DNA of 64,000 bases from Fodinibius halophilus (GTDB lineage Bacteria > Bacteroidota > Rhodothermia > Balneolales > Balneolaceae), in contig NZ_JAALLS010000022.1 in NCBI RefSeq assembly GCF_011059105.1, positions 1-64,000 of the forward strand, in the 5' to 3' direction. Shown here piece by piece: positions 28,131 to 31,142 of the stretch. The position numbers and the translations under genes are program-made. The first letter of the stretch is position 1, and each line of letters starts with the position of its first letter. The notes below the pieces were generated by a model that was not told the DNA's origin, searched no databases, and saw only the letters and a program-made list of their open reading frames with translations.

Positions 28131-28973
28131 ATGGATTTCAGAACGAAACTTAAAAAAGCGGTTCGTAGCAATAACTCTACGGTTTGTGTGGGGCTGGACC
28201 CCAATCTACAGCTGCTACCGGCCGAATTAACCAAAATTAAAGACCCTGCCAAACGGGTTGACCATTTTCTTAAGCAGGTTATTGATGCCACCCGGCAACA
28301 CTGTGCGGCATATAAACCGAACCTCGGCTTCTTTGAAGCCCTGGGCGCTGACGGCTGGGATACTTTTGAAAGTGTATTGGATTACATCCCCGATGATAAA
28401 ATCATTATTGCCGATGCAAAGCGAGGTGATATCAGCTCTACGGCCGAGCATTATGCAAAAGCTTTTTTTGAGACTCATGATGTGGACGCCGTTACATTAA
28501 ACCCGTTAATGGGATTTGAAACACTGGAGCCATTCCTGGGTAATCCGGCAAAAAGTATCTATGTACTTACCCTCACCTCAAATCCCGGGGCTCAAGATAT
28601 TTTGTTGCAACAATTAGACAGTGGCGAAACTCTTTCTACCTTCATCGCCAAGAGACTGCAAAAGCAGCAACAAGATCATCCAACTGCGATAGGAATGGTC
28701 GTAGGAGCCACAAAAGCGAAAGAGCTGGAACCGGTGATTTCTCACTTTACGGAATCCCCTCTATTGATACCGGGGGTTGGCAAACAGGGAGGATCGGTCA
28801 GTGAACTTTCTGAGTCCCTTAAAGAGCATACTGCTGTTCCGCTTGTGAACTCGAGCAGAAGTATTATTTATGCCGGTAATGATTCCCCGGACTGGAAACA
28901 AGCAGTAGCTCAATCAGCATTAGATCTCAAAGAACGTTTAGCCCCAATAACAGCTCGATATGTCAAAGGATAA
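28131..28973 (+). CDS. pyrF: Orotidine 5'-phosphate decarboxylase
   Basis: Converts OMP to UMP, the last step of de novo UMP synthesis. The 280-residue length and sequence fit the longer, type 2 (PyrF-UMPS-like) group. Motifs: CVGLDPNLQLLP at the start, KPNLGFFEALG, the catalytic IIADAKRGDISSTAEHYA with its Lys-Asp pair, and the phosphate-binding PGVGKQGGS. The last 14 bases overlap the start of rnhA. No other pyr gene is adjacent; pyrR and prs lie 10 kb upstream. Confidence 0.95.
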   Translation: MDFRTKLKKAVRSNNSTVCVGLDPNLQLLPAELTKIKDPAKRVDHFLKQVIDATRQHCAAYKPNLGFFEALGADGWDTFESVLDYIPDDKIIIADAKRGDISSTAEHYAKAFFETHDVDAVTLNPLMGFETLEPFLGNPAKSIYVLTLTSNPGAQDILLQQLDSGETLSTFIAKRLQKQQQDHPTAIGMVVGATKAKELEPVISHFTESPLLIPGVGKQGGSVSELSESLKEHTAVPLVNSSRSIIYAGNDSPDWKQAVAQSALDLKERLAPITARYVKG

Positions 28974-29412
28974 GCAAAAAACGGTTATTGTATTTACGGA
29001 TGGCGCCTGCAGTGGAAACCCCGGTCCTGGTGGTTGGGGCGTGCTGTTGCAATGGAACGGCGTTGAAAAGGAACTGACCGGAGGTGCTTCGCATACCACT
29101 AATAATCGTATGGAGATGCGCGCCGTTATTGAAGCATTAAATGCCATCACACAACCCTGCCACGTTAAAATTCATAGTGACAGTGCTCTTATTGTAAACG
29201 CCTTTAAACAAAATTGGATTAAGAGCTGGAAAAAACGGGGCTGGAAAACGGCAAACAAAAAACCGGTAAAAAACAAGGATCTTTGGGAAGAGATGCTGGA
29301 AGCAATGAAACCCCACAAGGTTGAATGGATTAAAGTGAAAGGCCACTCCGATAATGTCCGCAATAACCGGGTGGATCGTCTGGCTGTAGAAGCTTCCAAA
29401 AAATATCAGTAA
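28960..29412 (+). CDS. rnhA: Ribonuclease HI
   Basis: Cleaves RNA in RNA/DNA hybrids. The 150-residue protein has the acidic active site in FTDGACSGNPGPGGWG (Asp14), NNRMEMRAVIEAL (catalytic Glu), IHSDSALIVNAF (Asp) and HSDNVRNNRVDRLA (final Asp), plus the basic handle region IKSWKKRGWKTANKKPVKNKDLW. Its ATG lies 14 bases before the pyrF stop, so translation is probably coupled to pyrF. It is followed by a gene-free, repeat-rich region. Confidence 0.96.
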   Translation: MSKDKQKTVIVFTDGACSGNPGPGGWGVLLQWNGVEKELTGGASHTTNNRMEMRAVIEALNAITQPCHVKIHSDSALIVNAFKQNWIKSWKKRGWKTANKKPVKNKDLWEEMLEAMKPHKVEWIKVKGHSDNVRNNRVDRLAVEASKKYQ

Positions 29413-29431
29413 TTATTTTATTAGTGCGTTG

Positions 29432-29535
29432 AAAGCAGGCTGGCGAACAGCTTAACCGGGGCTACTGAAAAGTAGAAATCCGATAGCTCCAAGGGAGTTG
29501 TACTCCCGTAGCGCTGGTTCTATTCGCCTGCTTTT
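29432..29535 (+). other. Structured palindromic element (ncRNA or dispersed hairpin repeat)
   Basis: A 104-base element starting 20 bases after rnhA. The outer stem AAAGCAGGC/GCCTGCTTT (29432-29440 and 29526-29534) is perfect. Inside it, GAA-CAGC pairs with GCTG-TTC (29445-29451 and 29513-29520). Two further hairpins lie within: GGGGCTA/TAGCTCC (29458-29464 and 29484-29490, one G-T) and GGGAGT/ACTCCC (29493-29498 and 29502-29507). The result is a three-way junction. An alternative CTAC/GTAG hairpin and a GCTAC/GTAGC pairing are also possible. It ends in TTTT but lacks a strong T tract. It matches no RNA family I know; a dispersed palindrome is the main alternative, as the next 500 bases are full of repeats. 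Confidence 0.5.
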
Positions 29536-29658
29536 AAACTACAGGTAGACAGATAATAAGTTGTGCTTACATTTATATTTCCTGCTGATCACCCTCCGCC
29601 ACTACGTTAAAACTTTGAGGCACATAGCTGCACCTCCTACCGTTCACACTATCAACGT

Positions 29659-29762
29659 CTGTCATCGCGAGCGGAGGGGAACGCAGCGCGGCGATCTCCC
29701 TAAAAAAACCAGTTGATGTATGAGGGCTGCTCTTTGGTTCTACGCATACCTACGCCGAGATG
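29659..29762 (+). repeat. Repeat copy A (CTGTCATCGCGAGCGG type)
   Basis: Begins CTGTCATCGCGAG and continues through CGGCGATCTCCCT, AACCAGTTGATGTATGAGG and TTGGTTCTACGC. It aligns along its length with copy B at 29902-30018 with scattered differences and small insertions. Confidence 0.75.
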
Positions 29763-29901
29763 AACTCTGTTGAAGCTTTTTTGAAGAATGGCTTCGGCGC
29801 ACTTCGCGAACTAAGAACAGGAGACTGCCGCGGTCTTCCGGAAAATCGCCGGAATCCCTCCCCGCCAAACGGGGAGTGACACTGCTTTTTTTAATCAACG
29901 G

Positions 29902-30018
29902 CTGTCATTGTGAGGAGTGCCGTGGGTTGGCGGAACGACGCGGCAATCTCCCTGAAGAAACCGCTTGATGTATAAGAGGCTGCCCTTTAGGTTCTACGCG
30001 AACTTATACATGGAGATC
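29902..30018 (+). repeat. Repeat copy B (CTGTCATTGTGAGGAG type)
   Basis: Begins CTGTCATTGTGAGG, then CGGCAATCTCCCT, AACCGCTTGATGTATAAGAGG and TAGGTTCTACGCG. Diverged copy of the element at 29659, in the same orientation and about 243 bases away. Confidence 0.75.
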
Positions 30019-30140
30019 CTGAAACGAGTTCAGGATGACATTGCTTCTAATATTCTTTTAGAACTTACTTTGGCATTTGGGCGCCAGGTATACCGATGAG
30101 ATTTCTCACCGCATTGCAACCATTCGAAATGAGCTGTGGC

Positions 30141-31142
30141 TTATTTTCTACTGCTCAAACTGGCAAAAGGCTTTAGTTCCATATCAGAATACATATCCCG
30201 CTCAGCCATCATCCCCCCCGTTATTGCGATCATGGCCGCATTATCGGTACAATAAGCTAGCTTGGGAATATGCAGCCTACAGTCCATCTCCTTCGTTAAT
30301 TCACGGGCCTTTCGACGTAACATTGAATTAGCAGAAACGCCTCCTGCCAACACCACACTTTCAACGCCCGTATGTTCCATAGCATTACGTAGTTTCTTCA
30401 CCAACACTTCAGTAATAGCATATGAAACGCTGGCACAGATTTCATCCAGGTGATCCTCTAAAAATTGCTCTTTGTCTTCTTGATCTTCTAGAAAATATTT
30501 AACCGATGTTTTAAGTCCCGAAAAGCTAAACTCAAAGTTATTATCTAACATCGCCTGCGGGAAGTCATGAAAACGGGGATCCCCATCTTTGGCACGCTCA
30601 TCAATCACCGGCCCAGCCGGATAAGGCAAGCCCAGTATCTTACCGATCTTATCAAAAGCCTCTCCAGCTGCATCATCCCGTGTTTCGCCCAACAGCTTGT
30701 GTTCAAAAGGAGCCGTCACGTGCACCAGTTGTGTATGTCCCCCCGATACGGTAAGTGCTACAAAAGGATAAGCAGGCGTTTCATCAATAAAGTTGGCATA
30801 GATATGAGCATCCATATGGTTGACCCCCACAAGTGGAATATCCCGTGACAAGGATAACCCTTTGGCAAAACAGAGCCCAACCAACAACGATCCCATAAGA
30901 CCGGGCCCCTGGGTAACAGCGATAGCATCAATTTCATTTATATGAACCCCTGCCTCATCCAGAGATTGCTGTACCGTGCGCCATATCGTCTTATGATGAG
31001 CGCGAGATGCCAATTCGGGGACTACCCCTCCATACTGCTCGTGCACCGCTTGTGAGGCAATAACATTCGACTCCATGCCTTTGCCGGTATAAACAGCAGC
31101 TGCTGTCTCATCACATGAGGACTCAATACCAAGTATCTTCAT
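30141..31142 (-). CDS. tsaD: tRNA N6-threonylcarbamoyladenosine transferase TsaD
   Basis: The catalytic subunit that, with TsaB, TsaE and TsaC, makes t6A37 in ANN-decoding tRNAs; essential in most bacteria. The 333-residue ASKHA-fold protein begins ILGIESSCDETAAAVY, has YGGVVPELASRAHH, AVTQGPGLMGSLLVG, the metal-binding VNHMDAHIYAN (His-x-x-x-His), ALTVSGGHTQLV and GGVSANSMLRR. It is the last gene of a group read nadB-nadC-nadA-tsaD, 48 bases after nadA. Its 3' end abuts the repeat-rich stretch. Confidence 0.96.
   Translation of the reverse strand: MKILGIESSCDETAAAVYTGKGMESNVIASQAVHEQYGGVVPELASRAHHKTIWRTVQQSLDEAGVHINEIDAIAVTQGPGLMGSLLVGLCFAKGLSLSRDIPLVGVNHMDAHIYANFIDETPAYPFVALTVSGGHTQLVHVTAPFEHKLLGETRDDAAGEAFDKIGKILGLPYPAGPVIDERAKDGDPRFHDFPQAMLDNNFEFSFSGLKTSVKYFLEDQEDKEQFLEDHLDEICASVSYAITEVLVKKLRNAMEHTGVESVVLAGGVSANSMLRRKARELTKEMDCRLHIPKLAYCTDNAAMIAITGGMMAERDMYSDMELKPFASLSSRK

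Follow-up and report, generated by a model that had tools for sequence, protein, structure and literature searches.

We wondered what kind of element lies between rnhA and tsaD in Fodinibius halophilus, where a 104-nt stretch rich in inverted repeats follows the end of rnhA: a folded RNA, or a repeat that moves as DNA. The host genome comprises 4.19 Mb in 91 contigs, and its genus includes F. salsisoli and F. salipaludis; the window, that is, the whole stretch of host DNA that we analysed, spans 64,000 nt. A sequence-only reading had placed the element after rnhA and proposed a 6S-like or other small RNA or, alternatively, a dispersed palindromic repeat. The upstream gene is indeed rnhA, encoding RNase H (28960-29412, plus strand; PF00075, 153 bits), and the gene converging from the 3′ side is tsaD (30141-31142, minus strand; PF00814, 311 bits).

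The pairings first described in the stretch 29432-29535 (plus strand) are all present: an outer nine-base stem joins AAAGCAGGC (29432-29440) to GCCTGCTTT (29526-29534) with no mismatch, a second stem joins CGAACAGC (29444) to GCTGGTTC (29513), two hairpins are formed by CTACT (29462) with AGTAG (29471) and by GGGAGT (29493) with ACTCCC (29502), and both halves of the alternative pairing, GCTAC (29461) and GTAGC (29508), can be found. The predicted RNA fold has an energy of −39.7 kcal/mol on the plus strand (z −3.1; 1 of 200 shuffles equal or better) and −40.6 kcal/mol on the minus strand (z −4.4; 0 of 200), while the stretch folded as DNA gave z scores of −3.8 and −3.7 on the two strands, with no shuffle among 200 matching either; 6 of 1,229 sliding 104-nt segments, several of them mutually overlapping, folded at least equally well. 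The impression of a folded RNA thus holds for the energy, which beats that of shuffles, and is weaker than claimed for the layout: the window contains 29 perfect inverted repeats of at least 9 bp spanning no more than 104 nt, against 14-24 (mean 19.8) in 20 dinucleotide shuffles, so an outer stem of 9 bp is, taken by itself, little more than chance would give, and the RNA centroid retains this stem, a few inner pairs and one hairpin, and nothing else.

Clear recurrence within the 104 nt is limited to the inner 24 nt at 29485-29508 on the plus strand. This core consists of a foot, AGCTCCAA, a 6-bp hairpin, GGGAGT-TGT-ACTCCC (29493-29507), and a closing G; 20 copies of the core, counted with 22 nt of it, occur in the host at up to three mismatches, the one described here included, whereas a reversed control pattern gave none. 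A 221-base query around the element aligned to nine host places, seven of the eight others by a short piece or part, most commonly 29484-29508. With up to two mismatches allowed, four of the 12 genus genomes (the host's is one of them) contain the core and none of 46 further genomes does. A covariance model of the hairpin, R1, built from 44 copies, has at least 23 host matches and at least 130 across 9 of the 12 genus genomes at E ≤ 0.05; scoring covered the 150 top candidates of a first look in each genome, and the counts may therefore be lower bounds, and matches near the threshold are weak and may be chance. Within the window R1 scores 44.9 bits at 29477-29514, the sole match below E 0.1 with filters off. 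The longest stop-free frame over each of the 20 host copies encodes 22-117 amino acids, none of them long, suggesting that the copies lie mostly between genes. For this inner core, then, the dispersed-repeat alternative of the sequence-only reading was right, given 20 host copies and, in two relatives, a flanked transposase gene described below.

The expectation that the next 500 bases would be rich in repeats was also correct. At least 73 host places, its own included, match 29410-30110 when 40 of 131 candidates are scored; they mark separate dispersed repeats at 29590-30060, 3′ of the core and outside the hairpin family. These repeats hold strings such as CCTCCGCCACTACGTTAAAACTT and GTCATCGCGAG...GGCGATCTCC, which we also noticed near core copies at G000:C67, C19 and C1 (G000 being the host genome).

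The same site in relatives carries no such hairpin. The order pyrF-rnhA-tsaD is kept in all 11 congeners searched, with an rnhA-tsaD gap, measured between tblastn match ends, of 52-203 bp against 734 bp in the host; R1 found no match in the gap of any of the 11. The one further R1 match in these loci (L096, E 0.84) falls where pyrF meets rnhA and not in the gap. Because the hairpin is absent from the gap in every congener, the element is lineage-specific and not an ancestral RNA. By eye, a GCAGGGATTTATTGCAATAAATCCCTGC-type hairpin stands between the convergent genes in 5 of the 11 (L098, L099, L100, L102 and L106); it is probably a shared terminator, and is not in the window as such.

To what extent is the hairpin itself conserved? 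From 53 loci, 84 R1 matches yielded 76 distinct copies, which were fitted to the model structure and include the rows used to build it; in this alignment 97.3% of cells are paired and three of the six base pairs show two-sided changes. Such changes fill 12 cells, against 1.4 in shuffles, with 0 of 500 shuffles as high and at most one when partners are slid, although one measure, the covariation score, rose from 0.118 to 0.164 when the partners were displaced by −2. The first 44 copies (47 collected, minus the out-of-register L067 +830, L076 +759 and L077 +1465) gave a weak signal of a single two-sided change, equalled by 18 of 500 shuffles. The sequence-only reading had coupled many dispersed copies with a lack of covariation as the mark of something other than an RNA: the copies exist, but so does covariation, confined to the small hairpin, as expected for a DNA hairpin read by a transposase. 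The foot is also constrained. Its first position is G in 70 of the 76 copies, its third is T in 74 and its middle one is C or T, so that most feet read [A][G][CT]T and are separated from the stem by three to four bases; a canonical GT[AG]G is present in one copy.

Copies that lie close together are arranged as inverted pairs. Across the genus, two copies whose starts are no more than 120 nt apart point in opposite directions in 23 of 23 cases (16 plus-minus and 7 minus-plus), as in REPINs, and same-orientation neighbours lie further apart (156 nt in G007:C7 and 238 nt in G000:C13). R1 detects no inverted partner for the copy at 29485-29508 within the window, so this copy reads as a solo REP, not a REPIN.

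A transposase gene accompanies the hairpins in two relatives. Open frames for a REP-associated tyrosine transposase (RAYT) of 205 and 182 codons are found in F. salsisoli (genome G007, locus L107) and F. salipaludis (G003, L108, a record under the older name Aliifodinibius), genomes and loci being matched by identical RAYT proteins. The two proteins score 112 and 105 bits against the NCBIfam model NF047646 (REP-associated tyrosine transposase; cut-off 80), fall below the NCBIfam IS200/IS605 cut-off of 55 at 24 and 25 bits, and pass Pfam Y1_Tnp (PF01797); a profile of both with a third, more distant host protein has a sole PDB match at E ≤ 0.01, TnpA-REP 4er8 (E 1.6e-7). R1 matches stand on both sides of each gene, five in F. 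salsisoli and four in F. salipaludis, in the same order of minus, plus, RAYT gene, minus, plus, with the hairpins in inverted pairs; the gene therefore has a plus hairpin before it and a minus hairpin after it, an order also seen, without a gene, in the 16 plus-minus pairs. Among 80 loci around RAYT relatives in named genomes, 76 lack an R1 match at E ≤ 0.05, which indicates a narrow hairpin family: strong matches are confined to the two loci above, a Bacteroidetes MAG (L110, 48% identity) has weak ones beside the gene and L172 has one weak match.

The host itself has a broken Y1-type gene, with a core copy (G000:C11:46433) 90 bp upstream of its start. Contig C9 ends (L010, compared with L011) about 20 nt before the expected RAYT start, so an intact RAYT could be missing from the host assembly, with a hint of a second copy in an assembly gap. 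A 56-aa query from the remnant found no match in G008 or G010, which have 21 and 12 R1 matches; the hairpins there persist, or were found, without a detected enzyme. On a first look, none of the host's eight PF01797 genes had an exact core copy beside it. For two of these, the open RAYT-like genes L092 (G000:C1:324819-325292) and L094 (G000:C5:757-1263), inspection by eye showed different hairpins in the flanks, and the repeated strings there differ too, for instance CTGTTTCCGCAGCAGAGCGACGGAAACAG to the left and right of the C1 gene; several RAYT families thus coexist in the host.

The nearest described system is RAYT subclass 2.6 (group 5). According to a survey of these enzymes, the subclass is mostly found in Bacteroidetes and its gene is flanked by atypical hairpins; these have no GT[AG]G, are repeated at other genomic positions and had been identified manually (PMC6006769). 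The Fodinibius system shares this arrangement of gene, GT[AG]G-less flanking hairpins and copies elsewhere; in the light of subclass 2.6, as covered there, the missing GT[AG]G excludes the canonical REP class only. The survey also gives for the subclass the motifs NH[LIV]H, WQ and YIH[QN]NP, a median length of 179 aa and a median HuH-to-Y distance of 82 (PMC6006769). The Fodinibius proteins have 178-181 aa, and 76-81 residues separate the Y from the final H of HuH; P0002 contains each of the three motifs, whereas P0001 has DHIH and YIHSNP, and P0003 has NHMH and YIHYNP. Given the recurrence of the core, the covariation of its hairpin, its lineage-specific presence, the open RAYT genes flanked on both sides in two relatives and the inverted pairing, we conclude with high confidence that 29485-29508 is a solo REP; the RAYT family to which it belongs resembles subclass 2.6. 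With the GTAG-footed REPs of Escherichia coli and Pseudomonas (subclasses 2.2 and 2.5) it shares a short extragenic hairpin, inverted pairs and a Y1 HuH gene, and it differs from them in lacking GT[AG]G, in having its foot off the stem and in its low copy number (at least 23 host R1 matches). IS200/IS605 ends, according to the survey, are subterminal hairpins read by a Y1 transposase (PMC6006769); the association of hairpins with such a transposase is common to both, but the two cognate proteins lie under the IS200/IS605 cut-off and over that for RAYTs. Among the papers listed in our literature searches, none contained the core sequence or named the genus or family together with RAYT, and two contained a genus name and the phrase 'repetitive extragenic palindromic'; as far as the literature searched indicates, the hairpin of these salt-loving bacteria would be a new sequence family of a known, ordinary kind.

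Other explanations start from the whole 104 nt. Transcription, downstream of rnhA, of a dedicated small RNA with its own structure (6S-like or of another kind) would account for the low folding energy on both strands and for the outer and second stems nested around two hairpins. Yet the two host stretches most similar to the element fold differently, without the three-way layout or the outer stem; the exact outer 9-bp arms accompany none of the other 19 core copies (the flanks of L010 and L012 being cut by contig ends); and all 11 congeners lack the element at the orthologous site. Rfam gave no match at the gathering score at the element, and none at E ≤ 10 in 29300-29700, which leaves 6S, tmRNA, SRP, RNase P and riboswitches all without a match; the sequence-only reading had already placed the element outside the tmRNA, SRP, RNase P and common riboswitch families. 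Promoter-like sites in 781 bases number one, against a shuffle mean of 0.9, that is, chance level. We consider an RNA of this kind highly improbable. The whole stretch might instead be a larger mobile unit (MITE) with the REP as one module: 121 nt around the core (29458-29578, plus strand) recur at one other host place, G000:C67:116921-117041, with 78% identity, and at a third, G000:C19:22132-22235, a partly overlapping stretch (29483-29600) matches at 69%. These two are, however, the only ones among the other 19 core copies for which the search reported anything longer shared downstream, the next longest being a 43-nt match in C9, and the longer matches have differing end points and no outer arms; such a unit seems very unlikely.

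A third possibility is that the REP inserted into a host terminator hairpin and now lies within its loop, so that the outer arms would be the two separated halves of a former rnhA terminator. A GCAGGGATTT...AAATCCCTGC-type hairpin, seen by eye, occupies the gap of 5 of 11 congeners, and the outer arms share GCAGG and CCTGC with it; a second host copy, L009 (G000:C5:74990), is enclosed by a separate 9-bp stem, ATTCCATGT / ACATGGAAT; and enclosing stems of at least 9 bp surround 3 of 50 units, where the controls average 0.60 and 3 of 300 controls are as high. This 9-bp threshold was chosen post hoc, though, and a cluster next to the RAYT gene makes up one of the three cases; from 7 bp upwards the stems do not outnumber those of the controls (8 against 9.9), and true flanks have no folding advantage over mismatched ones (P 0.41). 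The surroundings of the right arm recur at the C67 locus (29458-29578, 78%) and so look like part of the repeat, and the gap nearest by protein identity (G010, L096) has no such terminator. We regard a split terminator at this site as unlikely. A general preference of REPs for hairpin loops was likewise rejected, with no 7-bp excess, no better flank folding and a small post hoc excess at 9 bp. The L009 copy also has a GTGTCTC / GAGACAC stem. In the window, no terminator-like site (a GC stem with a T tract) occurs in 29380-30160, in agreement with the earlier remark that the element is not a simple terminator and has no strong T tract after it. With a solo REP at its centre, we take the 104-nt fold around the core to be incidental, and it may be specific to this locus; its strength is not fully explained by the 24-nt REP alone.

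A REP, on this reading, would be a short DNA hairpin that folds from a single strand, has a conserved 5′ foot and serves as the recognition site of a RAYT (TnpA-REP). The RAYT, an endonuclease of the Y1 HuH type, would bind to the hairpin when the DNA is single-stranded, cleave close to it and join it again at another place, steps for which we draw on the literature on RAYTs and IS200/IS605; single REPs and inverted pairs (REPINs) would thereby spread between genes. One REP, with other repeats, would have entered the rnhA-tsaD gap in the host lineage and persisted as a solo copy, in a genome whose assembly holds no more than a broken copy of the matching RAYT gene. A tempting but rather unlikely proposal is that the guide of the Fodinibius REP family is, instead of GTAG, a foot of the [G][CT]T type standing three to four bases from the stem, and that some copies lie inside host terminator hairpins, perhaps here too; if true, the RAYT would use another DNA-reading rule than the E. 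coli enzyme.

The candidate RNA can thus be struck from the list and explained as mobile-repeat debris, and what replaces it is a clean REP family for which two named species supply open RAYT genes with hairpins on both sides. As the survey describes the subclass 2.6 REPs as atypical and identified manually (PMC6006769), the 76 distinct aligned copies open both the foot and the guide rule of such REPs to testing.
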